Positions 3,976 to 30,531 of a DNA stretch of 30,531 bases are shown in pieces. Made by a program: the position numbers and the translations under genes. The notes under the pieces are model-generated. The model was given only the letters and a program-made list of their open reading frames with translations, had not been told where the DNA came from and did no database searches. The stretch's first letter is position 1, and the number at the start of each line of letters is the position of its first letter. Origin of the DNA: a virus; IMG/VR virus record IMGVR_UViG_3300010297_000048, positions 1 to 30,531 of that record; one strand, 5' to 3'.

Positions 3976-4398
3976 ATGAATATTTTTTGTCCGAAATGTG
4001 GAAAGAAATCTGTTGGAGCAGGTAAATTCTGTTCTTATTGCGGAGCGAGCTTAAAATCAACTGGATTAAACATACAGCCAAAGCCAGCGGCAACACAGAC
4101 ACAAACGCAGGCGAAGTCTTCTTTTACACCTTTCTCAAAACCTTTAACCGATAGGCTTCAGCCGGAATACGACAAAGAAGACGGCATAAACGTTCATTAC
4201 TTCGATTCTTCTATGATTCAAGGTTTGGAAGTTGAGTACGATGAATCTCCTTCTGTCAGACCTATTACATTCGGAGAAATGAAAAGCTCATTTGTCCCCT
4301 CACCAACCAGAGAAAAAAGCACTGAAACACTTTCTAAGGAAGAGTTTATGCAACAATGGAAAAAGGAAGCAGGGAACTCTAAATCCTTAGATGATTAA
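3976..4398 (+). CDS. zinc-ribbon protein, possible transcription co-factor
   Basis: This 140-residue protein starts with a compact zinc ribbon, FCPKCGKKSVGAGKFCSYCG (C5, C8, C19, C22). A low-complexity Q/T/P/S linker (about 32-55) and an acidic, probably disordered tail follow, with conserved-looking patches HYFDSSMIQGLEVEYDE and LSKEEFMQQWKKEAG. It overlaps the start of the sigma-like gene by 8 nt in a different frame, so the two are translationally coupled. A role as partner of that sigma factor is inferred from the coupling only. TTGTAATTAC at 3961-3970 is a weak variant of the late motif seen elsewhere. Confidence 0.6.
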   Translation: MNIFCPKCGKKSVGAGKFCSYCGASLKSTGLNIQPKPAATQTQTQAKSSFTPFSKPLTDRLQPEYDKEDGINVHYFDSSMIQGLEVEYDESPSVRPITFGEMKSSFVPSPTREKSTETLSKEEFMQQWKKEAGNSKSLDD

Positions 4399-5074
4399 AA
4401 AGAAAAAAACAAGCTTCGAAAATAATATATCAATTATTGACGAAGAACTAAAGAAAAGAAGGCCGAAGTGGAGCTTGCATTCTATAACTTGGATGGATTA
4501 CGAGGATGTTTGCCAAATTATAAGAATACACATTTATCAAAAATGGGACCAATACGATGAAACAAAACCACTTGAACCTTGGCTAAACAAAATCATATCG
4601 AATCAAATTAAAAACATAATACGCAACAATTATTCTAATTATACAAAACCATGCAGTAAATGCGCTGCTTGTATTGGGGAAGATGATTGTTCTTTATACG
4701 AAAACCAATCTTTTGAATGTCCACTTCTTAGTCATTGGTTAAAAAAGAGAAAATCCGCTTTTGATGTTAGAATGCCTTTGCCAATAGAAAATCATTCTTT
4801 TGAAATTCATTCGATTACAGACGATCAATCAAATCTTTCTGAAAAATTAGAAAACTTCCACGAAAAAGTCAAAGAAATTTTAAAGCCCAATGAATGGAAA
4901 GCTTATAAGCTTCTTTATGTGGATGGAAAAAGCGAAGAAGCCACGGCTAAAGAATTGGGATACAAAACTTCTGAAAAAAATAGAACACCCGGGTACAAGC
5001 AGATAAAAAATGTAACCAAAAAAATTATCTCAAAAATCAAAAAAGAGATTCAAAATGGTACCATAGAAATATGA
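4391..5074 (+). CDS. sigma-70-like factor with an inserted cysteine cluster
   Basis: This 227-residue protein has the layout of a small sigma factor. Residues 32-79 resemble region 2: MDYEDVCQIIRIHIYQKWDQ, then LEPWLNKIISNQIKNIIR. Residues 160-218 resemble region 4, with a helix-turn-helix-like EEATAKELGY and a basic tail. Between them lies an insertion with C88, C91, C94, C100 and C110 (spacing CxxCxxCx5Cx9C), which could bind zinc or an iron-sulfur cluster. It overlaps its neighbours on both sides by a few bases and precedes the packaging genes, a sensible place for a late-gene sigma factor. The candidate target is the GTGTAAT motif. A sigma-like fold is fairly secure; the specificity is inferred. 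Confidence 0.7.
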   Translation: MIKKKKTSFENNISIIDEELKKRRPKWSLHSITWMDYEDVCQIIRIHIYQKWDQYDETKPLEPWLNKIISNQIKNIIRNNYSNYTKPCSKCAACIGEDDCSLYENQSFECPLLSHWLKKRKSAFDVRMPLPIENHSFEIHSITDDQSNLSEKLENFHEKVKEILKPNEWKAYKLLYVDGKSEEATAKELGYKTSEKNRTPGYKQIKNVTKKIISKIKKEIQNGTIEI

Positions 5075-6165
5075 ACGACGACATACAATTAAACGACGAT
5101 CAAAAAAAAGTTATTTTAGATAGTTGGAATCAAGGAGTAAGTGATCTAAAAGATCTTACAACCAGCGTTTTCGGGGGAGAATTCGACGGAAGAAGCAAGC
5201 AGGGTAGAGCGGTAAAAAGATATCTCGGCTCTTTGAATTTAAAGCCAAAGCCAGCCCAAGTATACAAGCAAAAAGACAGGCCGGATTTAACAGAGGATCA
5301 AAAGCAATTCATTCAAAACAACGTGGGTAAAATGACGGCTATAGAAGTAGCTAGAGTTTTATTTTCTAATGATAAATTAAGAAACGTAAGCCCAGAATCA
5401 AAGGCTGTAATAGAATACTATGAATCTCAGGGGCTTGATCCATACAGTGCAGATGGAGCTACATTAGAAGAAGCTGAGGAGGTTTCTGAATGGAGGGCAC
5501 CAATTAGTTTCGATAGAACGTTAACAAGAGTAAATAAATTTGTTATTGATGGACCCCAAAAAGAAAATTTAAAACCCGAAGATAAAAGAAGAATACATGC
5601 CTTGATGACATATCTTCAAAACTATAGATTTGGGCACCAAGCAAATTCTTTTCGGGAAGAATCAGAAAGACTTTTGTTTGAATCTACTTTCGTTAGATAT
5701 GCATTCGATAAGCCAGACTTAACGCAAGAAGAAGTTGATCAATATATGCTTTTGGCAACAGAATCTGTGATGGGTTCAAGAATTCAAAGAAGAGTCGAAA
5801 GGCTTCAAAGGCTTTTGGATGAGCAAGCGGATCAAACAGATGAAGGAGCAAGAGTTTCAATGGCTTTGGTTGAAGCTATTGGTAAAGCGCAGGGAGAATA
5901 CAATGCTTGTGTAAAAAGACAGCAAGACCTTGTAAACAGCTTGAAACAAAAAAGAAGTGACCGATTAAACAAGCAAATTAAAGAAACGGCAAGCGTTATC
6001 AGCTTGGTTGACATGTGGAAAGAAGAAGAAAGCCGACTAAAGCTTCTTAAAATAGCTGAACTTCAAAAGAAAGCTGTTGAAGACGAAGTAGAAAGACTTT
6101 GGAATATGGAAGAAGTTAGAAGCAAAATTATCGGCTTGTCAAAAGAGGAGGCTCTAAATGGGTGA
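5071..6165 (+). CDS. possible terminase small subunit
   Basis: The 364-residue protein has two similar N-terminal segments (LNDDQKKVILDSWNQG and LTEDQKQFIQNNVGKMTAIE) that look like repeated helix-turn-helix units. A middle domain (about 150-240) and a long charged coiled-coil region (about 235-345) follow. DNA-binding units plus coiled coil, directly before the nuclease and large terminase genes, is what a terminase small subunit would show, but I do not recognise sequence identity and it is longer than usual. It overlaps the sigma gene by 4 nt and the ERCC4 gene by 8 nt; the latter is preceded by GAGGAGG inside this gene's end. An unrelated DNA-binding protein is the alternative. Confidence 0.5.
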   Translation: MNDDIQLNDDQKKVILDSWNQGVSDLKDLTTSVFGGEFDGRSKQGRAVKRYLGSLNLKPKPAQVYKQKDRPDLTEDQKQFIQNNVGKMTAIEVARVLFSNDKLRNVSPESKAVIEYYESQGLDPYSADGATLEEAEEVSEWRAPISFDRTLTRVNKFVIDGPQKENLKPEDKRRIHALMTYLQNYRFGHQANSFREESERLLFESTFVRYAFDKPDLTQEEVDQYMLLATESVMGSRIQRRVERLQRLLDEQADQTDEGARVSMALVEAIGKAQGEYNACVKRQQDLVNSLKQKRSDRLNKQIKETASVISLVDMWKEEESRLKLLKIAELQKKAVEDEVERLWNMEEVRSKIIGLSKEEALNG

Positions 6166-7093
6166 AAGATGCAAAATCTGCAACCAAATTTTTGAAAAAG
6201 AAAAGGAATTTAATTACCACCTTAGAAAACACGCTATTACAATAGCTGCATACTATCAAAAATATTATCCAAGACACGATTTGCACACAAACGAAATCAT
6301 TTTATTTAAAAACAAAGAATTTTATTTTACTAGTGATTTCAATAATAAAAACAGCTTGAGATATTGGTTGGGCAAGCAAGAAAAGGAAGCTCAAAGAGAT
6401 TATTGTTTAAAGCTGCTGCAAGTAAGAAAAGATAGGAAAAAAATAAAATACGCTCCGTGTCAGGCGGAACTCAGAACTCTTATGATACCGGCCATAAACT
6501 ATCTTGACGAAGTTTTTGGGGGTTACTATCAAACTTGCGAACAAATGGGCTTGGAGGTCAAATACGAAACAAGGAGTGAGCCTATAAAGGAGTATGAGTT
6601 AGAAGAAGATCCGGTCGTGTTCATCGACACAAGAGAAAAAAGACCGCTTAGGTTCAAAAAGTTTAAAACAGAAGTCCGAGGTCTCAAGTATGGAGATTAC
6701 GCACTTAGTTCGAAAAAAGACACATGCAATCTTCATATAGAAAGAAAATCTCTTTCTGATTTTTACGCGACTTTGAGTGGTGGATTTGAAAGATTTAAGC
6801 GTGAGTTAGATAGATCTGTAAATGAATATGCCAACATGGTTGTTGTTGTAGAAAGCAAAATAGACAAAGTAGCTTCTTTTAAATATACAAGAAGTGTTTT
6901 CAACAAAGTAAAGACTTCTCACGACTATATTTTTAGGAACATGCGCGAAATCATTCAAGAGTATCCAAATGTTCAATTTCTTTTTGTAGATGGAAGAAAA
7001 GAAGCTGTTCGGATTATAGAAAAGCTGTTTTCCTGTAAGTGCGAATACATAAAAACAGATCTACAGCTTGAATACGATTTAAAAAGACTATAA
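6158..7093 (+). CDS. C2H2 zinc finger plus ERCC4-type nuclease
   Basis: This 311-residue protein joins an N-terminal zinc finger (CKICNQIFEKEKEFNYHLRKH; C5, C8, H21, H25) to an ERCC4/XPF-type nuclease domain. The nuclease motifs are VFIDTREKRPLRF (D157, R159, E160), KYGDYAL (G179-D180-Y181) and IERKSLSDF (E195, K197, D201), which match the catalytic D...ERK core. Family members cut branched or flap DNA. It has the best Shine-Dalgarno in the window (GAGGAGG, about 10 nt before the ATG), and its stop overlaps the terminase ATG (TAATG). The position suggests trimming branched replication intermediates before or during packaging; that role is inference. Confidence 0.85.
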   Translation: MGERCKICNQIFEKEKEFNYHLRKHAITIAAYYQKYYPRHDLHTNEIILFKNKEFYFTSDFNNKNSLRYWLGKQEKEAQRDYCLKLLQVRKDRKKIKYAPCQAELRTLMIPAINYLDEVFGGYYQTCEQMGLEVKYETRSEPIKEYELEEDPVVFIDTREKRPLRFKKFKTEVRGLKYGDYALSSKKDTCNLHIERKSLSDFYATLSGGFERFKRELDRSVNEYANMVVVVESKIDKVASFKYTRSVFNKVKTSHDYIFRNMREIIQEYPNVQFLFVDGRKEAVRIIEKLFSCKCEYIKTDLQLEYDLKRL

Positions 7094-8943
7094 TGTGGTA
7101 CTCTCCAAATAAATACCAAAAAGATGTAATCGACATCAACGCTGAGTTGATGAATCTAAAAGGAACTTTAGATGACAAAGAAGCCAAAATCACTTTGGCA
7201 AAGTTTTTGAGATATAACTTGGCTTTTACGGTTAATTTGCTTACGGGAATTGAGCTTGCTCCGTTTCAAGAAATTACACTGAGAGGAATGTTAAATAGAA
7301 ACTACTCCATGTGCGTATGGGGTCGTGGATGCGGTAAGACTTTCATTAGTTCTATTTTTTCGATAATACAAGCAATATTTCATCCTAATTCCAAAATACT
7401 TATAGCTGGACCGACATTTAGAACTGCGAAATTTATTTTCAACAAAATTGAAGAAATAGCGGAATCAAAAAACGCGGTTTTGCTTAGACAGGCTCTTGGT
7501 TCAAACAAGGTAAAAAGAAACGATATTCACGAATGGAGACTCCCAAATGGTTCTAGTATAGTAGCTATTCCATTGAATGGAGAAAAGATTCGTGGTTTTA
7601 GAGCAAACATTTTGATTATCGACGAGTATCTTTTGATGAGCAGAGAAATTATTGATACGGTACTTATTCCGTTCTTGACGGCTCCTCAAGATATTGGAGA
7701 AAGACAAAAAATCATACAAGCAGAAAATGATTTGATCGGTAGGGGTTTGATGACAGAAGAACAAAGAACAAAATTCGAAAACAAAACAAAAATTATTGCA
7801 TTATCTTCTGCCAGCTATACATTCGAAAACTTGTATGTTACTTACTCAGATTGGTTGGGGAAAATATACGAAGAAGCAAACAAAGAAATTGATGCAAAAT
7901 ATTTTGTGAGCCAGATGTCTTGGGATTCAATTCCAAAACACATGATAAACAAAACTGTAATTGAAGAAGCCGAAGGAGGAGGAACTTCAAATGCGGTTTT
8001 TCAACGCGAATATTGTGCCCAGTTCACTGACGGCAGCGAAGGCTATTTTTCTGCGAAAAAAATGCACAAATGCACGATTCCTGATGGAGAATTGCCAACC
8101 ATAGAAATCAAGGGAGATTCTGACGCAGAATACATTTTAGCGATTGACCCTTCGTTTTCGAATGCTCCAAATTCTGACGATTTTGCAATGTGCTTGCTTA
8201 AAGTTGATTCAGAAAAAAAACATGGGGTACTAGTACATGCATATGCCGAGCATGGAAAAGATCTTAAAGATCACATAAAATATTTTTATTATTTGTATAC
8301 TCATTTTAATATCAGCTTGATTGTTATCGACAATGCTGGATATCAGTTTATTGATGCCTGTAATGAAAATAAGTTGTTTCAAGAAAAGGGTATAGACTTT
8401 AAGTTTATTGATTTTACAAGTTCAAAAGAAGGATCTGATTACGAAGCGGAAATAAGAAATTTAAAATCTGAATACAGTAAAGAGCTTCATAGAATAGTAT
8501 ACAAACAAGTATTTAGTAGCAACAATTTCATTCAAAAAGCAAATGACTATCTACAAGGCTCTATTGACTATCAGAGAATCTGGTTTGCTTCAAAAGGACA
8601 AGCTCACGGTTCTGCATTTGATAGATTGGTAAATACAAGGATTGATTTTGAAAATGCTAAATGCAGTGAATTAATACAAACCCAAGGCGACTTTGTTGAG
8701 CATATTGGATATTTAGTTGACTTGACAAAAAAAGAATGCGCTTTGATAGAAGTGAAAAGTAATTCTAGAGGCACTCAGAGCTTTGACCTGCCCCAACACC
8801 TTAATAGGGAAAACGGAGAAAATAGAGCGCGAAGGGATAGTTATACAGTTCTTTTCATGGCTAATTGGGCTTTAAAGTGTTATTTTGATTTTAAAGAAGT
8901 GCCACAGGAAGAGGATTTAAGTTTTAGGCCATTTTTTATTTAA
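7093..8943 (+). CDS. terL: terminase large subunit (ATPase/nuclease)
   Basis: This 616-residue protein is the DNA-packaging motor. The ATPase half has Walker A WGRGCGKT (residues 76-83), Walker B ILIIDE (173-178) and the SSAS coupling motif (238-241). The nuclease half begins with the acidic motif LAIDPSFS (D352), continues with LIVIDNAG, and has a late AFDRLVNTRIDFE segment with further acidic residues. The length is typical. It docks on the portal, pumps DNA into proheads and cuts the concatemer. It starts one base inside the stop of the ERCC4 gene and is followed by an intergenic gap with a GTGTAAT motif. No intein or frameshift is seen. Confidence 0.93.
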   Translation: MWYSPNKYQKDVIDINAELMNLKGTLDDKEAKITLAKFLRYNLAFTVNLLTGIELAPFQEITLRGMLNRNYSMCVWGRGCGKTFISSIFSIIQAIFHPNSKILIAGPTFRTAKFIFNKIEEIAESKNAVLLRQALGSNKVKRNDIHEWRLPNGSSIVAIPLNGEKIRGFRANILIIDEYLLMSREIIDTVLIPFLTAPQDIGERQKIIQAENDLIGRGLMTEEQRTKFENKTKIIALSSASYTFENLYVTYSDWLGKIYEEANKEIDAKYFVSQMSWDSIPKHMINKTVIEEAEGGGTSNAVFQREYCAQFTDGSEGYFSAKKMHKCTIPDGELPTIEIKGDSDAEYILAIDPSFSNAPNSDDFAMCLLKVDSEKKHGVLVHAYAEHGKDLKDHIKYFYYLYTHFNISLIVIDNAGYQFIDACNENKLFQEKGIDFKFIDFTSSKEGSDYEAEIRNLKSEYSKELHRIVYKQVFSSNNFIQKANDYLQGSIDYQRIWFASKGQAHGSAFDRLVNTRIDFENAKCSELIQTQGDFVEHIGYLVDLTKKECALIEVKSNSRGTQSFDLPQHLNRENGENRARRDSYTVLFMANWALKCYFDFKEVPQEEDLSFRPFFI

Positions 8944-8947
8944 AAAT

Positions 8948-8954
8948 GTGTAAT
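8948..8954 (+). promoter_or_regulatory. candidate late promoter motif (GTGTAAT)
   Basis: GTGTAAT followed by TAATAAATAA lies 26 nt upstream of the collagen-like fibre start, in the gap after terL. Confidence 0.45.
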
Positions 8955-8973
8955 TAATAAATAAGGGTCTGGG

Positions 8974-11385
8974 ATGCCAAATTATAATTTAATTCAATTA
9001 AGTCAGGTAAAGCAGTCGGATTTCAGCGGGTTTGTGTTGGATGTACTGGGAGCTTCTGGCTTAATAGCAAATGAAAATGGCATTTTCCCAACTGGATCTG
9101 GCATTTCTGATATTGGGTCTTCTTCTGTTCCTTTTAAAAGTATATATTCTCAATCTGGAATATACTTGGGTCAATATCAAGACAGGCTTTGGGTTAGTGG
9201 AGACGGGCAGCTTTATCTAAATGATACCGCAATAACTGGAGCTTCTGGTCAAGCCGGGGTTATTGGACCTAGTGGTGCTACTGGACTATCTGGAACAAGC
9301 GTAGTTGGAGTTTCGGGCTCTGGGCTTTCGAATGGCGGCTATCAGTATCTTTATCTTCTTCTTTCTGGACAGGGAGACTCTTCTTATACTCTTTCTTCTA
9401 GCTTGGCTATTCCAAGCGGTGCAAGTGGACTTTCTGGAGCACAAGGGGAAAGCGGCACGTCTGTAACGGGATATTCTTCAAGCGGCTCTGGAGATTTTAC
9501 AGTTGTCAAATTCCTTTTCAGTGACGGAACAACGGGTTCTTCAGTAAACATTAGCGGGGTTACCGGATCAAAAGGAGAAAAGGGAGATATCGGTGGAACA
9601 GAATATGAATTCTCTGAGATAACTGGGCTTTATTCTGGTGAAATTGCTCCATACGCATCAATATCTTCAATCGCAGGTATCAACCCAAAGATCAATCTAA
9701 TCGAAGGCTTTTCTTACGTAATAAGCCAAGGGGGGCTTGATTCTTATACTGCTTATAATCCAGACTTGTCTTCTAATGTTTCTACAAACTGGCTTGTTAC
9801 AACTGGAGACGGTGAGCCAGTACAATATGAAACTTCTATTACTGGAGACTCAGAAACAGGATCATATTTAAGATTTTCTTTGTACACCACTGGAACTCCA
9901 ACAGGGAGATTCATTCCAGACGAAGGATTTCCAAGTGGGATTGAAACAAATGGCTCTGGAGAATACCTTGATTTAGCTGATTATTTTAGAAACATAGCAG
10001 ACACAAGCGGCTCTGGCGTTTCAGATCTAGCGAGAACAAAACTTAGTTTTACAGTAAACTTTGGAACTACTGGTTACTACAAATATGGGTTTACCAGATA
10101 CCAATACGACGCAAGCGCAAGAACAACAAATGAATCAGATTATGTTCTTGGAGATTTGCAAATTTGGAGTCATATCCCAAGTGGAGAAAAGGGGGAAAAG
10201 GGAGATCAAGGCGATATAGGAGCTACTGGTCCAGAGGGACCGCAAGGACCGGCTGGAGACACTGGACCAGCGGGATCATCTGGTCCTCAAGGGCCGAGCG
10301 GAGCCACTGGTCCTGCTGGAGATATATCGAACGCATTTGTTGGATCTTGGTCTGCCGCAGAAACTTATAGCGCAGGTCAAATTGTTCTTTTAACGAGCGA
10401 TAAATCGACTTATGTGGCTAGAGAATCAAGCGTTGGAGTAAATCCAAAAACGGCTTGGGATGCAAATAATGATACTTCTGCTTGGATCTTGCTGGCTTCT
10501 GGAGGAATAGATGGGGCAGTTGGTGCTACTGGACCAGCGGGAAGTATTTCAAATAAATTTTCTGGAGAATGGAGCAATGTAGAATCATACTCAATAAATA
10601 GCATTGTAAGTTATAGTGGATCTTCTTATTTTTCTATTACTGGAACTAATGTTGGATATAGACCAGATCTTTATCCTACAAGATGGACCCTGCTTTCATC
10701 TGGGGTCGTAGGTCCAAGTGGAGCAACTGGAATCACTGGGCCGGAAGGAGCTTTGTCGAACAATTTCAAAGGGACTTGGGACGAATTCACAAATTACTAC
10801 GAATCCGATGTTGTGTTTTTGTCTGGCTCTTCTTTTCTAGCTCATATTGATGTATCGGCAACAGCAAACCCAATAGAAAACGTAGAAGCTGGAGATGGGC
10901 AGTCTGGATCTTATTGGTTGGTTTTAGCTTCGGGGGGAGAAAAGGGAGATCAAGGTGCGCCGGGATCTATTGTTTATAATGTTTCCGGGGGAGACTCTTT
11001 GAGAAAGCTTGAGGTAGGAGACAATACAATTTCATTTAACACTTACGATGCCCAAGAATACTTTATAACAGGAGCAAACTCTATAGATTCAAGAGTCAAT
11101 CTATATTTCGATTTAACAACAATGGGAACAGGCTCTGTTTATTTGGTTAAAATTTTAAATTCTGGACTATCCGACTCTGCTGTTGGATCTGACGATATTT
11201 TTACTTGGAATTTAAGTGGTTCGGGGGCTTCTTCTCCGTTTCCAACGGTTTATTGGCCAAACGATTTAGATCCGATTTTTCCCACAGCAACAGGTCACTC
11301 AACTTTATTTACTTTGGTGAGATTTGCCGACAGAGGCTCAACACCAATCGTTTTAGGAACATTTTCAGACAATTATTTCATATAA
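8974..11385 (+). CDS. collagen-like fibre protein with three carbohydrate-binding-like modules
   Basis: This 803-residue virion protein begins with IQLSQVKQSDFSGF, a segment shared with the protein at 23166, so both may attach to the same virion site. A beta-rich region with short GxS/GxxG stretches follows. At 10183-10326 (residues 404-451) there are 16 unbroken Gly-X-Y triplets rich in Pro, Lys and Glu, a real collagen-like segment. Next are three related 55-60 residue modules (about 454-510, 526-580, 596-653) with the pattern FxGxW...Y..G.IV...SxYxA...P...W.LL, resembling chitin-binding CBM5/12 folds and separated by short Gly-X-Y linkers. A C-terminal beta domain ends the protein. It is probably a trimeric fibre or head decoration that binds glycans. 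Its place between terminase and portal is unusual. Confidence 0.75.
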   Translation: MPNYNLIQLSQVKQSDFSGFVLDVLGASGLIANENGIFPTGSGISDIGSSSVPFKSIYSQSGIYLGQYQDRLWVSGDGQLYLNDTAITGASGQAGVIGPSGATGLSGTSVVGVSGSGLSNGGYQYLYLLLSGQGDSSYTLSSSLAIPSGASGLSGAQGESGTSVTGYSSSGSGDFTVVKFLFSDGTTGSSVNISGVTGSKGEKGDIGGTEYEFSEITGLYSGEIAPYASISSIAGINPKINLIEGFSYVISQGGLDSYTAYNPDLSSNVSTNWLVTTGDGEPVQYETSITGDSETGSYLRFSLYTTGTPTGRFIPDEGFPSGIETNGSGEYLDLADYFRNIADTSGSGVSDLARTKLSFTVNFGTTGYYKYGFTRYQYDASARTTNESDYVLGDLQIWSHIPSGEKGEKGDQGDIGATGPEGPQGPAGDTGPAGSSGPQGPSGATGPAGDISNAFVGSWSAAETYSAGQIVLLTSDKSTYVARESSVGVNPKTAWDANNDTSAWILLASGGIDGAVGATGPAGSISNKFSGEWSNVESYSINSIVSYSGSSYFSITGTNVGYRPDLYPTRWTLLSSGVVGPSGATGITGPEGALSNNFKGTWDEFTNYYESDVVFLSGSSFLAHIDVSATANPIENVEAGDGQSGSYWLVLASGGEKGDQGAPGSIVYNVSGGDSLRKLEVGDNTISFNTYDAQEYFITGANSIDSRVNLYFDLTTMGTGSVYLVKILNSGLSDSAVGSDDIFTWNLSGSGASSPFPTVYWPNDLDPIFPTATGHSTLFTLVRFADRGSTPIVLGTFSDNYFI

Positions 11386-22796: not shown

Positions 22797-23150
22797 ATGC
22801 CAAGAAAAAAAATCAAAAACCTAGATCAAATTTCTCAAGCCCACGGAAAAGAAGAAAAGTTTCAGCCGACAACCTTGGAGCAAATTTGGGGGTCAGATGG
22901 AACAGATAAATATTTCACAACGAATCAAGAAGAGTACGAGCAGTGGATTCAGTCTGCTCCAAAATCTGATTTGTTCAAACACGCGACAAAAGTTGGTTTT
23001 GTTCCGACAGACAATGTAGGAATGTTGAGAAAGAAATTGGTGCAAGAGTTTAAAAAAGTTATGAGCACATACAAATTTCCAACTGGTAAAGACAAAAAGA
23101 ATCCAAATATCAGCAAAAAAGCTTTAGATATTCTAAAAGAAGGCTCATAA
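22797..23150 (+). CDS. conserved-type hypothetical phage protein, 117 aa
   Basis: The protein begins MPRKKIKNLDQISQAHGKEE and contains WGSDGTDKYFTTNQEEYEQW, then DLFKHATKVGFVPTDNVGML and a basic C-terminus. I recall similar small proteins next to capsid genes of T4-like cyanophages, but the role is unknown to me. It is alpha-helical and charged, with AAGGA before the ATG. It stands between the capsid terminator and the GTGTAAT motif, so it may be a one-gene transcript. TATATAATA at about 22776 is a possible promoter box. Confidence 0.65.
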   Translation: MPRKKIKNLDQISQAHGKEEKFQPTTLEQIWGSDGTDKYFTTNQEEYEQWIQSAPKSDLFKHATKVGFVPTDNVGMLRKKLVQEFKKVMSTYKFPTGKDKKNPNISKKALDILKEGS

Positions 23151-23160
23151 GTGTAATTTT
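23151..23160 (+). promoter_or_regulatory. candidate late promoter motif (GTGTAATTTT)
   Basis: GTGTAATTTT begins directly after a TAA stop and 15 nt before the ATG at 23166. No Shine-Dalgarno is present. Confidence 0.5.
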
Positions 23161-23165
23161 ATTAA

Positions 23166-23687
23166 ATGGCTCAGTTTAATAGAATACAGGTATCTCAAAT
23201 AAATCAAGAAGATTTTTCTGGTTTTATCGAAGACACTTTAAACGGGAAAACTGGACTTTACAGACCAACTGGAGCTTCTGGGTCATTTCAATTCAATAGC
23301 GGAGGCTATTTCGGAGAAACGAATTTATCGTTTTATAACAATAAGATAGGATTCAATCAACCTACCCCTTCTTATGACTTTGAGTTAAGCGGAAAAAACT
23401 TGAAGGTAATAGGAACGGGGTATTTTGATGATATTTATTTGGGCGTTTATCAGGTAACAACAAACAATAATTTAAATGCCTCTGGAGAATATTTAGAAAA
23501 TTTAACAACCCAACAAGTTTCAATTATTAGTGGCTTGTTGAAAACAGGCTACATGTCGAGTGGATATATAACTGGGAATTACTATCCATTGTCAAACCCT
23601 TCTGGTTTTATAACGGGATCAGACGCTGTTTCAGCAACTGGATTGAATTTAGAAAACAATATAATAGCAAACCAAGTTTTTAGTTAA
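23166..23687 (+). CDS. small fibre/adaptor protein sharing an N-terminus with the collagen-like fibre
   Basis: This 173-residue protein opens with MAQFNRIQVSQINQEDFSGF, closely matching the start of the 803-residue fibre at 8974. The next section (PTGASGSFQFNSGGYFG, then NKIGFNQPTPSYDFELSG) resembles fibre modules of the QFNNGG and GIGTTSPxxKLHV kind found in the giant fibre at 26177. It is probably a short fibre, or a base onto which other fibre chains attach. The C-terminus is rich in SGY/TGY turns. No enzymatic motif is present. Confidence 0.65.
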   Translation: MAQFNRIQVSQINQEDFSGFIEDTLNGKTGLYRPTGASGSFQFNSGGYFGETNLSFYNNKIGFNQPTPSYDFELSGKNLKVIGTGYFDDIYLGVYQVTTNNNLNASGEYLENLTTQQVSIISGLLKTGYMSSGYITGNYYPLSNPSGFITGSDAVSATGLNLENNIIANQVFS

Positions 23688-23688
23688 T

Positions 23689-24045
23689 ATGGCTACATTT
23701 ACAAAACAAAAACTGAGTCAATCATCAAACGGAAGACAAATAGTTGTTGACACAACTGCCAGATCAACAGCTAGGCTAATTCACACATCAACTTCTGGAA
23801 CAACGAATTGGGATGAAATTTGGATTTACGCCACAAATGTTTCTTCTAGCGATGCCGTATTAACAATTTGCTGGGGCGGGACAACTGCTGACACAGATGA
23901 AATGCACATTACAATTCCATCCAAGCAAGGAAGGACGCTTGTTGTTGATGGAAAACTCCTGCAAAATTCGCTACAAGTAAGAGCCTATGCTTCTGTTGTA
24001 AGCGTTATTAACATTGACGGCTTTGTAAATAGAATAACGCAATGA
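23689..24045 (+). CDS. small virion protein, 118 aa
   Basis: The protein begins MATFTKQKLSQSSNGRQIVV and is a compact all-beta domain (WDEIWIYATNVSSSDAVLTI, a CWGGTTADTDEMHITIP strand pair and a terminal VSVINIDGFVNRI). I recall proteins of this size and pattern among tail-associated proteins of large environmental phages, but no function. Its stop overlaps the ATG of a 23-codon reading frame (ATGA), and it lies among fibre genes, so it is probably part of the tail or fibre assembly. Confidence 0.65.
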   Translation: MATFTKQKLSQSSNGRQIVVDTTARSTARLIHTSTSGTTNWDEIWIYATNVSSSDAVLTICWGGTTADTDEMHITIPSKQGRTLVVDGKLLQNSLQVRAYASVVSVINIDGFVNRITQ

Positions 24046-24113
24046 GAAGATTCACTTTAACAAAAACGAATTTGTCAAGTAGAAGCTGCAAGGGGAGAAG
24101 ATTTTTTCTTTAA
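24042..24113 (+). CDS. 23-aa microORF, possible remnant of a paralogue
   Basis: The frame starts at the ATGA overlap with the previous stop and ends with TAATG overlapping the glycosyltransferase start, so it is coupled at both ends. It encodes MRRFTLTKTNLSSRSCKGRR plus three residues. The start resembles that of the preceding protein (MATFTKQKLSQSSNGRQ), suggesting a truncated copy of that gene, kept either as a translational bridge or as a decayed duplicate. Confidence 0.4.
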   Translation: MRRFTLTKTNLSSRSCKGRRFFL

Positions 24114-25072
24114 TGGAATTGGGGCCAATTTTACTTATTCGGAACGACGGGGAGACAGTTGTTTCTTTAAAAGAAGAAGAAAAGAATGTGTTTTCCCTGC
24201 CAGACGAAAATTACTTTTTTAAAATATTGACTGGCTCTGACAATATAACCACAAAGGTTAAAGAAATTCTTTGTCAGCAAAAAATTGATCCGCCAACGAC
24301 TTGTTCTCAAAAAAATATTCAAAGCTTTTGTTTCGTTACAACGGATCAGTTGAAATCAGAAGCAGCCATCCTCCTTTTTTCCTTGAGGCAACACCACGAT
24401 CAAGAAGTTTTTGTTGTTGCGGATCAGCCATCTATCGACTACTTAAAGGCTTTCGACTTCAAAAATGTAAATTATAAACTATTCAAAGTAGAAGAAAAAG
24501 TTGTCTCAGAGTTGAGAAAAAAATATGATCACATAAATACATTTCATAAAGTTGATTGCATTTATGCAAAAATGTATGCGATGGAATGGGCTTTGGAATC
24601 ACATAGTAATACATTTTTTCTTGATAGTGATATTATTGTTTTAAATTCTTTGCAAGAAAATTTTTGCTTGGATATTTGCTTTTCTAAACATAACCACGAA
24701 GAAATGAGGCTTGACAATAGAGTGGGAATATATAATGCGGGATATGTTTTTTGCTCTAATAAGGACTTTCCGAATTGGTGGAGAGAAAATTATATTACAA
24801 GATCTTTATTCTACGAGCAGGAGTGCATGAACAGGGCAGTTCAAAGATTTTCTTTGCAGATATTCTCAGAAAATCATAATGTGGGATTTTGGAGGTTTAA
24901 ATATCCGACAAACAATATCAAATCATTTCATAATCATCTGTCTACATCTTTCGATGAAAATCAGCCAGCCCAAATAAAAGAAAAAAATTTGAAGTTAAGA
25001 AAATTCATTTATGAGTATTTGCAAAAAAACAACTTCAAAGAACTTCTTGATTTTATAAAGGGCGTACTATGA
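24113..25072 (+). CDS. glycosyltransferase, GT-A fold
   Basis: This 319-residue protein is a likely nucleotide-sugar glycosyltransferase. Residues 71-110 start the Rossmann-like half (FCFVTTDQLKSEAAILLFSL). A metal-binding DxD sits in FFLDSDIIVLNSL (D171, D173), followed by IYNAGYVFCS (207-216), as in GT-A enzymes that keep a NAG motif, and FYEQECMNRA. The first ~65 residues form a separate segment of unknown role. It is coupled to the sulfotransferase-like gene by a 4-nt overlap and lies among fibre genes, so it may glycosylate virion fibres; modification of host surface or phage DNA is the alternative. The acceptor and sugar cannot be told. Confidence 0.75.
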   Translation: MELGPILLIRNDGETVVSLKEEEKNVFSLPDENYFFKILTGSDNITTKVKEILCQQKIDPPTTCSQKNIQSFCFVTTDQLKSEAAILLFSLRQHHDQEVFVVADQPSIDYLKAFDFKNVNYKLFKVEEKVVSELRKKYDHINTFHKVDCIYAKMYAMEWALESHSNTFFLDSDIIVLNSLQENFCLDICFSKHNHEEMRLDNRVGIYNAGYVFCSNKDFPNWWRENYITRSLFYEQECMNRAVQRFSLQIFSENHNVGFWRFKYPTNNIKSFHNHLSTSFDENQPAQIKEKNLKLRKFIYEYLQKNNFKELLDFIKGVL

Positions 25073-25809
25073 ATCAAAAAAACAAAATAGCATTTATTCA
25101 TTTTGGAAAAGCTGGCGGCGTATACATAAACAGATATTTCAGAGAAAGAATACTAAAAAACAAAAACTCAATTAACAAAAATTTATGGCTCGAAAGTCAC
25201 AAAAACAAAAATATAGCGGGAAGAGATTGGAACAAGCAAGAATTAATTGAGTTCTCAAAACTAGAAAATCCAGATGGTATTATTTTTGTTCATAATCATC
25301 ACAACAATTGGGATTCTGAAATTTTAAAAGAATACAAATCAAACGGATGGTTTACATTTTGCTTTTTGAGAGATCCGAAAGACATAATTTGTTCTTTGTA
25401 TTTTTTCAGCAAAAAGCTTATCGAGAATGGAGGACATACGGCGATTGGTCCATTGGGGGTTTTGGCGGGATATAAAAAACACGGAGCTTTTCAAGTTATA
25501 GATGTGGAAGCGGTTACGCTAGATCAGTTTGTTCTAAAAATGATAGAAGATAAAAATCAACATATTTTTTGGAAGCTTCCAGATTATATAGATGATTTAA
25601 GCTATGCGAAACAGATAAACGAAAAAAATTTAAAGCAATTTTTCAGAGATTTTTTTAGTCACTGTTATTTCGCTATGAGAAAGGCTAATGTGTCTTCTAA
25701 TATGGGTTATAATTTTTACAGGGCAATTGGAGAGATTTCTGACGCAACCCATGAAAAACTCGTTTCTCATCCAGAATACATAAAATACAAAGACTATTTG
25801 GATAAATAG
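25069..25809 (+). CDS. sulfotransferase-like protein
   Basis: This 246-residue protein resembles carbohydrate sulfotransferases, which move sulfate from PAPS to a hydroxyl group. The 5'-phosphosulfate loop is AFIHFGKAGGVYINRYF (8-24), with the usual P-loop-like GKAGG. The 3'-phosphate segment is TFCFLRDPKDIICSLYF (R101, S109). It overlaps the glycosyltransferase gene by 4 nt, so the pair is co-expressed, and a sugar laid down by the first may be sulfated by the second. The C-terminal half is more divergent. No signal peptide or membrane segment is present, so it would act in the host cytoplasm. Confidence 0.75.
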   Translation: MNQKNKIAFIHFGKAGGVYINRYFRERILKNKNSINKNLWLESHKNKNIAGRDWNKQELIEFSKLENPDGIIFVHNHHNNWDSEILKEYKSNGWFTFCFLRDPKDIICSLYFFSKKLIENGGHTAIGPLGVLAGYKKHGAFQVIDVEAVTLDQFVLKMIEDKNQHIFWKLPDYIDDLSYAKQINEKNLKQFFRDFFSHCYFAMRKANVSSNMGYNFYRAIGEISDATHEKLVSHPEYIKYKDYLDK

Positions 25810-25821
25810 GCAAAAAAATAA

Positions 25822-25831
25822 GTGTAATATA
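25822..25831 (+). promoter_or_regulatory. candidate late promoter motif (GTGTAATATA)
   Basis: GTGTAATATA starts exactly 15 nt before the ATG at 25837, at the head of the giant fibre transcript. There is no Shine-Dalgarno in between. Confidence 0.55.
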
Positions 25832-25836
25832 CCTAT

Positions 25837-26175
25837 ATGAGTACCTATAACATAAGCGTAACTCAGGGGGAAACGCTGGATTTAGATTTGACTTTAAAGG
25901 ATTCTAATGGGAATCCCGTTAATCTTTCTGGATACAATATCAGGGGAAAAGTCAAATATTCTTATGGGTATCCAAACGCAATTTATGATTTAGAGCCAGC
26001 TATTTCTGGAGACGGAACAAGCGGTTTTGTAAACGTAACAATTGAGGCAACTGGAACCGCGTCCCTTCCGGTAACAAAAGCTTATTACGAAATCGAAAGA
26101 TACACCAACGATGACGTTTTTGTTGGTAGTATTCTAAAAGGCACTTTCACGGTCAATCCACAGGTAGGAGCATAA
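25837..26175 (+). CDS. small Ig-like/baseplate adaptor-type protein, 112 aa
   Basis: The protein begins MSTYNISVTQGETLDLDLTL and continues KDSNGNPVNLSGYNIRGKVK. This pattern is common at the N-terminus of phage baseplate or fibre-attachment proteins (BppU-like or Ig-like beta sandwich). The rest is all beta, ending GSILKGTFTVNPQVGA. The next gene starts 1 nt after its stop, with TAGGAG near its end serving as that gene's ribosome site. Probably an adaptor joining the giant fibre to the tail. Confidence 0.65.
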   Translation: MSTYNISVTQGETLDLDLTLKDSNGNPVNLSGYNIRGKVKYSYGYPNAIYDLEPAISGDGTSGFVNVTIEATGTASLPVTKAYYEIERYTNDDVFVGSILKGTFTVNPQVGA

Positions 26176-26176
26176 A

Positions 26177-29100
26177 ATGGCAGAACAAGTAGAAGTAATA
26201 ATACAGGCTGGGAATACGATTGAGGTAAATCCTTCTACTTCTGGAATTACGGTAGAAATCGGAGACTCTACTCCACAAGGAGGACCGGCTGGAACAAGCG
26301 GATCTTCTGGATCAAGCGGGTCAAGTGGATCGAGTGGGTCTTCTGGGTCAAGTGGATCAAGTGGGTCTTCTGGGACAAGTGGCTCTGGCGGATCAAGCGG
26401 AACAAGTGGCTCTGGCGGATCGAGCGGAACAAGCGGAACCAGTGGTGTATCTGGAACGAGTGGAACAAGCGGAACTTCTGGCATTTCTGGAACAAGTGGG
26501 TCTTCTGGATCGAGTGGATCAAGTGGGCAAAGTGGGCTTCCCGGTAGTTCTGGAACAAGTGGTTCTTCCGGCGCGGCGGGATCGAGCGGAACTTCTGGGA
26601 TTGATGGTGGTCTTATAGTTCGTTACGACTATAGTGACTCAACAAGCATGTCCAATCCCGGAAATGGATATTTGAGATTTAGTGCCGCCGCCCAATACGC
26701 TTATATAAATCAGGCCACTAGAATGACTCTTAGTGGAAGAGATAGAAATGATTCTCTTGTTTATCAGGTTTATCAAATTTTAAACTCTGTTTCTAATTCA
26801 AATCAAATTGCTATACTGACGGTTTATAAAGAAAGTCAACCGACAATGTTTGCCTCCTTCAAGGTTACGGCAACCAATATAACTGCAACTAGTTATGCGG
26901 ATTTGGACATTTCATATATAAATGCGTCTTCAGATTTTTACTTGGTTGGAGAAGATCGCGTTGTTCTTGCTTACGAAATAGTTGGATCTGATGGAACAAG
27001 CGGAAGTTCTGGAACAAGCGGAAATTCTGGAACAAGTGGAACGAGCGGAACAAGTGGATCTTCTGGTTCAAGTGGAACCTCTGGATCTAGCGGCACAAGT
27101 GGTTCCTCTGGATCTTCTGGGTCTTCTGGATCTTCTGGAACATCTGGTATAAATGGAACTTCTGGAACGTCTGGTATAAATGGAACTTCTGGAACAGACG
27201 GCACTTCTGGTTCGTCAGGAACTTCTGGTTCGTCAGGAACTTCTGGTTCATCAGGAACTTCTGGATCGTCAGGAACTTCGGGTTCAGACGGAAACTCTGG
27301 AGGCATTGAGTTTCAATATACATTTAGTTCTAGTACATCAGAAACAGATCCCGGCGCAGGATATTTGAGACTAAATGATTTAACTCAGTCTAGCTCCACT
27401 TTCGTTTTTATTGACACTGTAGATTTCTTTTATCACAACTTAACAAGTTACTTGTTGAGTATAGCTGATGTAAGCGGAACAGAAAAAGGATTTTTTCAAA
27501 TAGCCAATAGAACAGATCCATCTAAACACTTATTATTTAAAATAACTAGTTCTGTTTATGATTCTGGCGGATTTGTTAAAATCGGGGTAACGAATTTGGC
27601 TAGTTCGTCTTCTTCTCCGTTTGCCAACAATGACAGTATTGTTATATCTGTAACCAGAAGTGGCAACCCCGGAACCAGTGGAACCAGCGGATCGAGTGGA
27701 ACTTCTGGATTGGATGGATCATCTGGTACAAGTGGGTCTTCTGGAACGAGTGGAACGAGTGGAACAAGTGGATCTTCTGGTTCAAGTGGAACCTCTGGAT
27801 CTAGCGGCACAAGTGGAAGAGATGGAAATTTTGGTGGAGCCAGTTTTAAGTATAACTTTCTCACTTCAACAACGCAGCTTGATCCGGGATCGGGTAATTT
27901 CAAATTAAATAATGCCAGCCAAAGTTCTTCTACGGCAATTTATATAGATCAAATAGATTTGGGTGGAACAGATATTTCGCAATACCTACAAACAGTTGAT
28001 GACTCTACTTCTACAATCAAAGGTCATGTAAAACTGTCGAAAGAATTTTCTAGCGCAGATTTTATCTTGGGTACAATTTCCTCTGTTTCTTATGATTCTG
28101 GTGGTTTTTATATAATAAATATTTCGGTTGTAGATCAGTCAACTTCTTCTCCTTTTTCGAGCGGAGATGATATAGTGTTGACTTTCGCGAGAACTGGCGA
28201 TAAGGGAGACGATGGTACGAGCGGGTCTTCTGGCACAAGTGGGTCTTCTGGCACAAGCGGCTCAAGCGGTTCTTCTGGTTCTAGTGGAACGTCTGGATCA
28301 AGTGGCACAAGTGGAACGTCTGGATCTGCCGGTGGAGAAGGTGGAGCATCTTTTGTTTACAATTTTGACTCATCAACAACTGGGTCAGATCCGGGTAGCG
28401 GAAATATAAGACTAAATAATGCGACCCAAAATTCTTCAACAGCTATTTATATTGACACAATAACTTTAACTAGCGCAAATATAAACTCTTTTCTTTCTGC
28501 TATTGGAAGTTTAACTGGGTCTCCAAAGGGATACGTAAAATTAACGAAAAAAACTTCTCCTCAAGATTTTTTGCTTTTTAATATAACGGGCTCTTCTTAT
28601 GACTCTGGTGGGTTCTACAATATAGCAGTTACAAATTCTGCATCTTCAAGCTCTTCTCCTTTTTCTGATGGAGATGATTTGGATGTATCGTTTACGACAA
28701 ATGGAAACGACGGAACAAGTGGAACATCTGGAACTTCGGGTACGAATGGAGTAGCTACTGCCGGTGGATCTCAAGGAGACGTTCAATTTAATAATGGTGG
28801 CGCAGTATACGGCGTATCAAACTTAAACTGGGATGGAAATGGTCTTTACTCTAATGGTTACATAAGTGGTCAAGCTATAAGCGGTCAGAACTTGTTTGGT
28901 ATTTCTGGTGAATTTGGAACTGCCGCTAGAGGGGCAAGTGCTTCCACTCCCAGCAGTCTAGTGAGGATTCATGGGTACGACAATCCAAAGATTTCTCTAT
29001 ACGCTTCGAATGGCTGGTCTAACTGGGAAATTCATGGCGGCGTCAATGACTACCTTGAAATCAAAAATGCTGGTACTAATCCTAACAAGTATGTCAATTT

Positions 29101-30531
29101 AGACAATCTCTCTGTTGGGACGCATACCACTTTAGGTGAATCATCTTTTTATAGTAATACAACAAAACCCGCCATCTATGCTACTTGTGCTGGTGGTAGT
29201 GCAAATGTCATATTTAGTGGTCAGTATGGTGGAACACCAATCTTTGTTTTTAATAGGAATGGGAATGTATTGATGGGTGCAAAAACTGCTCAAGGTCAAG
29301 TGTCCATTTCGGGTATTATGAACGGCACTCCCGTTATGACTATTATTGAGGGAGCCAATACAACCGACATTCTACAACTAAAAGATACCAGCAACAATGT
29401 TGGTTGGGTGGTTGATACTGATTTTAATTTAGGTATTGGGACAGCTTCTCCTTCCGCTAAACTTCATGTGGTTGGGGGAGCGAGAATAGATGGAAATACT
29501 CTAGTTAAAAATAACGGAGGTGCGCCAGTTGACTTTACCATCTCTGGAGACAATAATGTCACTCATAACATAAAAACAACCCAATCCAACAGGGGACTAA
29601 ATCAGTTAATTCAAAATACTGATATAGGTAATTACATTTACTCTCTAGTTCAACATAGCAGTGATAGTATTACTGACGGGGTTAATTTCGTAAGCGGAAC
29701 AAAATTGTTATTTAACTCCCCTACAGCGAGCGCAGGCTCAATGTTAGGAACCGTTTCCAATACCGACCTTTATCTATCCACCTACAATCAACACAGAATT
29801 AAAATAGAAAAAGGGGGCAATGTTGGCATTGGAACAACTAGCCCCGCAACCAAACTTCATGTCGAAGGAGACATTACTGGCCAAGCAATAAGTGGAACGA
29901 GCATTTCTGCGCCAGAAATAACCAATCTTCAGACTGCTACGGGAACTCTTCGTGCTGACATCGACAGTAACGACACAGACATTTCTGCGCTGCAAACAGC
30001 TACAGGGGTATTGTCGCAAGTATCTGTAACAGGATCTTCGTCAATTCACGCTCCAGATCTGACTGGCGTTGGAAATGTTACGGTAACGTTAGACGGTAGC
30101 ACCGTCAAAATCAGTGGGGCATCAGCGGGTGGAGGAACTCCTGCTGGATCTGACAACCAAATCCAGTTCAACAATGGCGGCTCGTTCGGAGCATCTTCTA
30201 ATTTAACTTGGGATGATAATGGTCTTTATGTTAATGGTTACATTACTGGACAAGCGATAAGTGGAACGAGCATTTCTGCGCCAGAAATAACCAATCTTCA
30301 GACTGCTACGGGAACTCTTCGTGCTGACATAGACAGTAACGATACAGATATTTCTGCGCTACAAGCAGCAACGGGAGTTCTTCGCGGAGATATAGATAGC
30401 AACGATACCGATATTTCTGCGCTGCAAGCAGCTACAGGGGTATTGTCGCAAGTATCTGTAACAGGATCTTCGTCAATTCACGCTCCAGATCTGACTGGCG
30501 TTGGAAATGTTACGGTAACGTTAGACGGTAG
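26177..30531 (+). CDS. giant modular tail fibre protein, open at window end
   Basis: The frame opens at 26177 (TAGGAG upstream) and stays open to the window end: at least 1451 codons without a stop. After a ~35-residue head come five Gly-X-Y blocks, at 26282-26605, 26984-27298, 27662-27832, 28196-28339 and 28703-28756 (36, 35, 19, 16 and 6 triplets). They are almost pure GTS/GSS with two prolines in the Y place. They separate four beta modules of 126, 121, 121 and 121 residues, the last three sharing YDSGGF and SSPF. Then come QFNNGG modules, GIGTxSPxxKLHV repeats (about 29430 and 29824) and coiled-coil-like LQxATGxLRxDIDSNDTDISA units. It is probably a trimeric receptor-binding fibre; a chaperone domain may follow beyond the window. 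Confidence 0.85.
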   Translation, partial: MAEQVEVIIQAGNTIEVNPSTSGITVEIGDSTPQGGPAGTSGSSGSSGSSGSSGSSGSSGSSGSSGTSGSGGSSGTSGSGGSSGTSGTSGVSGTSGTSGTSGISGTSGSSGSSGSSGQSGLPGSSGTSGSSGAAGSSGTSGIDGGLIVRYDYSDSTSMSNPGNGYLRFSAAAQYAYINQATRMTLSGRDRNDSLVYQVYQILNSVSNSNQIAILTVYKESQPTMFASFKVTATNITATSYADLDISYINASSDFYLVGEDRVVLAYEIVGSDGTSGSSGTSGNSGTSGTSGTSGSSGSSGTSGSSGTSGSSGSSGSSGSSGTSGINGTSGTSGINGTSGTDGTSGSSGTSGSSGTSGSSGTSGSSGTSGSDGNSGGIEFQYTFSSSTSETDPGAGYLRLNDLTQSSSTFVFIDTVDFFYHNLTSYLLSIADVSGTEKGFFQIANRTDPSKHLLFKITSSVYDSGGFVKIGVTNLASSSSSPFANNDSIVISVTRSGNPGTSGTSGSSGTSGLDGSSGTSGSSGTSGTSGTSGSSGSSGTSGSSGTSGRDGNFGGASFKYNFLTSTTQLDPGSGNFKLNNASQSSSTAIYIDQIDLGGTDISQYLQTVDDSTSTIKGHVKLSKEFSSADFILGTISSVSYDSGGFYIINISVVDQSTSSPFSSGDDIVLTFARTGDKGDDGTSGSSGTSGSSGTSGSSGSSGSSGTSGSSGTSGTSGSAGGEGGASFVYNFDSSTTGSDPGSGNIRLNNATQNSSTAIYIDTITLTSANINSFLSAIGSLTGSPKGYVKLTKKTSPQDFLLFNITGSSYDSGGFYNIAVTNSASSSSSPFSDGDDLDVSFTTNGNDGTSGTSGTSGTNGVATAGGSQGDVQFNNGGAVYGVSNLNWDGNGLYSNGYISGQAISGQNLFGISGEFGTAARGASASTPSSLVRIHGYDNPKISLYASNGWSNWEIHGGVNDYLEIKNAGTNPNKYVNLDNLSVGTHTTLGESSFYSNTTKPAIYATCAGGSANVIFSGQYGGTPIFVFNRNGNVLMGAKTAQGQVSISGIMNGTPVMTIIEGANTTDILQLKDTSNNVGWVVDTDFNLGIGTASPSAKLHVVGGARIDGNTLVKNNGGAPVDFTISGDNNVTHNIKTTQSNRGLNQLIQNTDIGNYIYSLVQHSSDSITDGVNFVSGTKLLFNSPTASAGSMLGTVSNTDLYLSTYNQHRIKIEKGGNVGIGTTSPATKLHVEGDITGQAISGTSISAPEITNLQTATGTLRADIDSNDTDISALQTATGVLSQVSVTGSSSIHAPDLTGVGNVTVTLDGSTVKISGASAGGGTPAGSDNQIQFNNGGSFGASSNLTWDDNGLYVNGYITGQAISGTSISAPEITNLQTATGTLRADIDSNDTDISALQAATGVLRGDIDSNDTDISALQAATGVLSQVSVTGSSSIHAPDLTGVGNVTVTLDG
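27047..27102 (+). repeat. 56-bp exact repeat, copy 1
   Basis: The sequence is identical to 27761-27816, offset 714 bp (238 codons), so both copies are in the same frame. Recombination between them would remove or add one rod plus one globular module without a frameshift. Confidence 0.8.
27761..27816 (+). repeat. 56-bp exact repeat, copy 2
   Basis: Second copy of 27047-27102. Synonymous codon choices are also identical, although serine and glycine codons vary freely elsewhere in the rods, which points to recent duplication or conversion. Confidence 0.8.
29882..30099 (+). repeat. long fibre repeat, copy 1
   Basis: Encodes QAISGTSISAPEITNLQ, one 21-residue coiled-coil-like unit and a GVLSQVSVTG domain. 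It matches 30251-30531. The 5' ~70 bp and the final 101 bp (29999-30099) are identical, with synonymous changes between. Confidence 0.8.
30251..30531 (+). repeat. long fibre repeat, copy 2, reaching the window end
   Basis: Same as 29882-30099 but with one extra 63-nt unit, i.e. one more LQxATGxLRxDIDSNDTDISA (21 residues, three heptads). The last 101 bp (30431-30531) are identical to 29999-30099, and the window stops inside the match. Confidence 0.8.

Follow-up and report, generated by a model that had tools for sequence, protein, structure and literature searches.

Two plus-strand genes of an uncultured tailed-phage contig (IMG/VR record IMGVR_UViG_3300010297_000048) encode a predicted glycosyltransferase (GT) of 319 aa (24113..25072) and a predicted sulfotransferase (ST) of 246 aa (25069..25809). 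The overlap of 4 nt reported in an earlier note is exact, the two open reading frames (ORFs) sharing an ATGA. The window, that is, the whole stretch of 30,531 bases analysed here, has no end repeats, and its gene content includes PhoH, a sigma factor, an ERCC4 nuclease, a terminase, two collagen-like fibres, and structural genes. Most of the structural proteins encoded between 11395 and 22704 are kept in a dozen related contigs and show weak PHROG matches or none, and the terminase shares about 30% identity or less with the listed matches among known phages, which indicates that this phage lineage is poorly described.

The pair belongs to an inserted cassette (23151..25836) that also holds two small plus-strand genes. 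The first encodes a small fibre-like protein of 173 aa (23166..23687), with weak BLASTP similarity to the two collagen-like fibres of the window (E 7e-4 and 0.002), and the second a 118-aa protein of phrog_30535 (23689..24045; PHROG E 1.9e-27), which has no assigned function and a homologue of which lies beside a fibre in L016. On the other side, and also on the plus strand, a 112-aa protein of phrog_1084 (25837..26175), which weakly matches BppU_N and L-shaped tail fibre assembly families, is followed by a giant collagen-like fibre (26177..30531), which is open at the window end and matches PHROG tail fibre families (best E 3.8e-48). The pair had been described as lying between small fibre proteins and the giant fibre; this placement stands, except that the 112-aa gene intervenes and that the gene on the 5' side is the phrog_30535 member. 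No match to a flippase or membrane glycosyltransferase family was found among the neighbours of the window pair, which are fibre-type genes or small genes without assigned function.

The flanks of the cassette are adjacent in other members of the lineage. The homologues of 22797-23150 and those of 25837-26175 are separated by 26-96 bp (measured between alignments) in at least 12 relatives (L013, L015, L016, L018, L020, L021, L029, L033, L040, L045, L050, L056, and others), and the 2.7-kb insert with the two small genes, the GT, and the ST is not present in the closest relative. In L033, where it spans 9023-10717, and in L035 and L040, a fused GT-ST gene is found on the opposite side of the giant fibre from the window pair, which suggests that in the window lineage the enzymes change place yet stay beside the fibre. 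The pair is AT-rich (GC 0.31-0.33), and since the genes of the window span 0.31-0.49, a recent acquisition inferred from GC was discarded. The collagen-like fibre gene at 8974-11385, which has a weak CBM_5_12 match and lies directly 3' of the terminase gene, looks like another insert, since in L013, L018, and L020 no gene separates the terminase from the next structural gene.

The GT should be a GT8-type glycosyltransferase of the GT-A fold, predicted to transfer a sugar from a nucleotide sugar. This assignment is based on its AF2 model (mean pLDDT 76), on Foldseek comparison with the PDB, in which glycogenin, LgtC, XXYLT1, LARGE1, and UGGT were on top (prob 1.0, E ~1e-9 to 1e-8), and on 39% identity to the GT half of the fused protein P0001; the top BFVD matches of the fold search also include GT8 viral proteins. 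The DxD (D171-S-D173; 24623..24631, plus strand), a predicted metal/nucleotide-sugar site, is located within FFLDSDIIV, and N208-A209-G210 (24734..24742, plus strand) forms a GT8-type N-x-G motif. Residues D171, D173, N208, A209, G210, H255, G258, and H273 are invariant across 32 GT clusters. The phage GT thus has the GT-A fold, DxD, N-x-G, and C-terminal His in common with GT8 enzymes such as glycogenin, LgtC, XXYLT1, and LARGE1, but it is divergent, falls below the Pfam GT8 cut-off, and holds its own conserved HNxGxWR motif. The Pfam GT8 profile (PF01501) gave no match with the window GT, matched two out of 10 relatives (E 0.028 at best), and scored 13.1 bits on one fused relative, below the cut-off of 24.3. 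A GT8 match above the cut-off in contig G019 corresponds to a gene separate from the studied GT and was not counted. GTs of ~760 aa, with a C-terminal extension of ~340 aa without assigned kind, occur in L050, L056, L072, and L083, where one or more sulfotransferase genes are located two to five genes 3' of the GT.

The second protein should be a PAPS-type, Sulfotransfer_2-like sulfotransferase, as predicted from its AF2 model (mean pLDDT 84), Foldseek, and 38% identity to the ST half of P0001. It holds a 5'-phosphosulfate-binding loop FIHFGKAGGVY (25093..25125, plus strand), in which F9, I10, H11, K14, and G17 are invariant over 12 sequences (A3), and a 3'-phosphate-binding motif FLRDPKDIICSLY (25363..25401, plus strand), in which F99, R101, P103, C108, and S109 are invariant (A3). 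Within FIHFGKAGG and FLRDP....CSLY, we take K14, R101, and S109 to be the residues expected for PAPS binding in the sulfotransferase family. The DxD and PAPS-binding motifs that the earlier note regarded as intact are present, and the residues named here do not vary over the 32 GT clusters and 12 ST sequences. The best sulfotransferase match in Foldseek is the heparan sulfate 2-O-sulfotransferase 4ndz (prob 0.99, E 9e-4, TM 0.49), the structure of which was determined with oligosaccharide and PAP bound; the list also includes many other sulfotransferases, as well as P-loop kinases and folds at similar scores.

At the level of sequence families, the window ST shows a weak match to phrog_3347 (galactose-3-O-sulfotransferase; E 0.013), and none of the 12 window-type ST family members reaches the Pfam PF03567 cut-off; in other phages, an ST encoded near a related GT exceeds this cut-off. 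The phage ST has the Lys of the PAPS loop and the R...S 3'-phosphate motif in common with heparan sulfate 2-O-sulfotransferase and other Sulfotransfer_2 enzymes, but it lacks the Pfam match, its loop reads FIHFGKAGG instead of FIHIPKTAGT, and it is often fused to a glycosyltransferase. In L038 (9929-11425), the ST is fused to a nucleotidyltransferase-like domain, which elsewhere is encoded by a separate gene after GT-ST.

Single-sequence scans of the viral collection with the window GT and ST recovered no relatives, and Pfam and PDB sequence searches with both gave no usable match. With no useful Pfam or PHROG match for either ORF, the motifs alone could not settle their identity. The breakthrough came via synteny: a fused relative was found, alignments were built, and the viral collection was rescanned. 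Contig 3300031605_000005 (L015/L024/L035) encodes, directly after its collagen fibres, a single ORF of 648 aa; one of its segments shares 39% identity with the window GT, and its final segment shares 38% with the window ST. As both window proteins match parts of one ORF, the two genes have a natural bifunctional protein as their counterpart. Alignment-based scanning yielded 13 ST loci and 43 GT loci, and the GTs were collapsed at 90% identity into 32 clusters, window included. Relatives of both enzymes with 32-43% identity keep the motifs, indicating that the window pair is not due to chance.

The fusion of GT and ST into one protein of 538-768 aa, observed in 14 of the 32 GT clusters, is new here. 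An ST gene of the same family adjoins the GT in six clusters, including the window, and three have no detected ST, two of them with the GT directly after a collagen fibre. In the other nine, another kind of ST is encoded within three genes of the GT, a class that is not independent of the GT neighbours because the profile used was built partly from them; all five seed ST neighbours tested pass the Pfam Sulfotransfer_2 cut-off alone. Up to two genes away from a GT, 21 of 166 genes encode an ST, compared with 7 of 617 in the rest of the same loci (Fisher p 7e-10, an optimistic value because near-identical contigs are counted). GT and ST distances correlate when both proteins come from the same two families (r 0.79, permutation p 0.0002, n = 20), a correlation to which shared phage ancestry contributes. 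In the tree, 11 fused forms constitute one supported set, and the branch of the window GT is long and could not be placed; its separation from the ST could be either ancestral or the result of fission.

The genomic context of the GT is that of virion-structure genes in at least 23 of the 32 clusters (22 from the neighbour table plus L062), the criterion being that a fibre, a laminin-G-family protein, or the conserved small gene of this block lies no more than five genes away. In many clusters, the gene order is collagen fibre, laminin-G-family protein (Pfam match E 4e-11), a protein of ~80 aa, and GT-ST. Tail fibre or baseplate PHROGs are found upstream of the GT in L041, L051, L058, and L062. 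Moreover, in T4-like phages (head and neck families in L043 and L058) and in a third phage type (L062), the upstream gene is of fibre or baseplate type and lacks collagen repeats. A phoH gene, and not fibres, adjoins the unit or its ST in L034, L036, L037/L057, and L038, and in L037 and L038 nucleotide-sugar and glycosyltransferase-like genes do so as well. Up to a distance of five genes, L073, L077, L078, and L081 showed neither collagen nor laminin-G genes nor the small gene. The small gene of ~80 codons directly upstream of the GT (8796-9041 in L033, and its homologues) is conserved in about half of the clusters, mostly overlaps the GT start, and has no PHROG match; its product could possibly be a fibre chaperone or an acceptor.

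It had also been proposed that the Ser/Thr-rich Gly-X-Y rods of the giant fibre are the target of the pair. The abundance of these residues was confirmed: there are 451 Ser plus Thr in 1451 visible residues, and in the 116 Gly-X-Y triplets 182 of the X/Y positions (78%) are Ser/Thr. However, when the suggested co-occurrence of the pair with Ser/Thr-rich fibres was checked in relatives, rod content did not track the enzymes (10-48% Ser/Thr in relatives that carry them vs. 3-44% in relatives without them nearby), and some GT-ST units lie beside fibres that lack collagen repeats. Targeting of Ser/Thr rods was thus abandoned as a general rule, the window being extreme among enzyme carriers. Laminin-G and fibre-tip proteins are the acceptor candidates at which we would look first.

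The donor side of the reaction is represented in some of these phages. An APS kinase would make the sulfate donor, and L052 encodes an APS-kinase-family gene 3 kb downstream of its fused gene (E 5.5e-13), which fits real sulfation. Genes of this family were detected in three of the 35 records searched, the other two elsewhere in the contig (L102 and, weakly, L098); the L098 candidate (26.9 bits) also matches zeta toxin and was not relied on, the L052 one being stronger. Phages with no APS kinase of their own would rely on the sulfate donor of the host, although most records are fragments. The L052 gene belongs to a glycan cassette (4207-10286) located before T4-like neck and head genes. This cassette encodes a laminin-G-family protein, an 84-aa protein, the fused GT-ST, and the APS-kinase-family protein, together with a further glycosyltransferase-like protein and a pyruvyltransferase-like one (both named by sequence reading only) and methyltransferase-like and nucleotidyltransferase-like proteins. 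In a relative of the window phage, contig 3300031606_000394 (L027 281-8978, L028 6519-10075), genes for an NTP_transferase (RmlA-like), a dehydratase (RmlB-like), a UDP-glucose dehydrogenase, and a carbamoyltransferase occur among structural genes, where three Sulfotransfer_2 genes are also spread.

Outside the viral collection, no match was obtained when the window GT and ST, together with four relatives, were compared by tblastn with 50,697 phage records. When 84,980 bacterial and archaeal genomes were scanned with sequence patterns, no GT relative was revealed, and the ST had a single relative. It comes from a gammaproteobacterial bin, where two glycosyltransferase-like genes, one of them confirmed as Glycos_transf_1, adjoin it and an MBOAT acyltransferase gene is close by. 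As the sensitivity of these scans is limited, GT and ST should be regarded as not found there rather than absent.

The fusions, the adjacency in diverse phages, the correlated divergence, the fibre neighbours, and the APS kinase together give good support to the sequential addition of a sugar and a sulfate, and the functional pairing claimed at the outset is borne out by them; it is very probable that the pair carries out both reactions, presumably in the order proposed below. According to this model, the GT8-like enzyme would first pass a sugar from its nucleotide-sugar donor to an acceptor, and the sulfotransferase would then use PAPS to sulfate that sugar or a group next to it. The acceptor would most likely be a fibre or laminin-G-like adhesin encoded in the same structural block. 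Expression would occur late in infection, and the finished phage would bear negatively charged fibre glycans that may alter adsorption or provide shielding. That the two genes constitute a virion-decoration unit acting on such an acceptor is the reading we favour, with a probability of around 55%. Against it stand the units or STs that adjoin phoH or lie away from recognised fibres, the Ser/Thr content of the rods, which does not follow the enzymes, and the moderate, mixed fold match of the ST. The extension of this reading to a phage-specific family of bifunctional enzymes that add both sugar and sulfate to tail-fibre or laminin-G-like adhesins, with some phages encoding a sulfate-donor kinase, is more tentative, at slightly below even odds.

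The location of the unit in structural blocks with fibre neighbours favours a virion protein as the acceptor, and polysaccharide-type genes in some cassettes keep alive a role at the host surface, as genes of the sort expected in surface-polysaccharide loci (epimerase, carbamoyltransferase) occur in some phages of the group. The main rival explanation is that during infection a sulfated sugar is placed on lipopolysaccharide or capsule, which would prevent sister phages from binding to the infected cell or to its debris. The only cellular ST relative found sits in a polysaccharide-type locus, epimerase and glycosyltransferase-like genes adjoin the unit in L037 and L038, and the fold matches of the GT include LgtC, a GT8 enzyme that acts on lipopolysaccharide. 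Phage serotype conversion is mostly due to gtrABC genes of temperate phages, which include membrane proteins and act on host lipopolysaccharide. These systems resemble the window pair in using phage glycosyltransferase genes, but their GTs are membrane proteins, they are not known to include a sulfotransferase, and they lie outside the fibre block; no membrane-protein genes of gtrABC type were seen beside the window pair. Given also the structural blocks in which the unit is embedded, modification of the host surface seems unlikely, at perhaps half the weight of virion decoration or less.

Some other acceptor, such as a small molecule, a host protein, or a non-protein glycan, with the fibre neighbourhood as a tolerant insertion site near variable fibres, would agree with the mosaic nature of fibre regions, the location of the window pair in an insert relative to its closest phages, and the further cargo enzymes within structural blocks; nevertheless, the same GT-ST keeps fibre neighbours across phage types (L058 and L062 vs. 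L033), and the small gene directly upstream is conserved together with it, making this explanation improbable. Finally, that the genes are decaying passengers or assembly noise without function in the window phage is very hard to believe, for although a close relative of the pair was not recovered by single-sequence scans and the identical contigs behind L002 and L003 do not cover the GT-ST stretch, both frames are intact, the expected motifs are kept at ~35% identity to relatives, and the GC content of the pair lies inside the span of the window genes.

Virion decoration by the phage itself has a precedent in mycobacteriophages, the virion glycosylation of which was reportedly described by Freeman et al. 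in Cell Host Microbe in 2023. In these phages, virion proteins are glycosylated by phage-encoded glycosyltransferases, as predicted here, and the decorated proteins are those of the capsid and tail tube (cited in PMC12619734); the available portion of that source mentions no sulfotransferase, whereas sulfate is predicted for the window pair, with a fibre or adhesin as the putative acceptor. Sulfotransferase genes from marine and glacier-ice phages have been considered auxiliary metabolic genes, with a role called unclear (PMC10580990, PMC8290583). They are likewise phage-borne, but in the passages considered these sources describe neither a glycosyltransferase partner nor a fused one next to fibre genes. 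In the open-access literature searched on phages with a sulfotransferase and a glycosyltransferase, we found neither such a pair, nor a GT-ST fusion, nor a sulfated virion.

Descriptions of glycosylated phage particles are limited to few groups, and the literature searched yielded no sulfated ones. If the proposed decoration is correct, many environmental phages would chemically edit the surface with which they contact their hosts, and the GT-ST family may explain the recurrence of sulfotransferase genes without a role in environmental viromes. This work yields a defined gene family with conserved residues, which recurs in uncultured phages of several lineages. The fold search also retrieved distant viral proteins with a GT8 fold, some of them from cultured phages, such as Synechococcus phage S-SCSM1.
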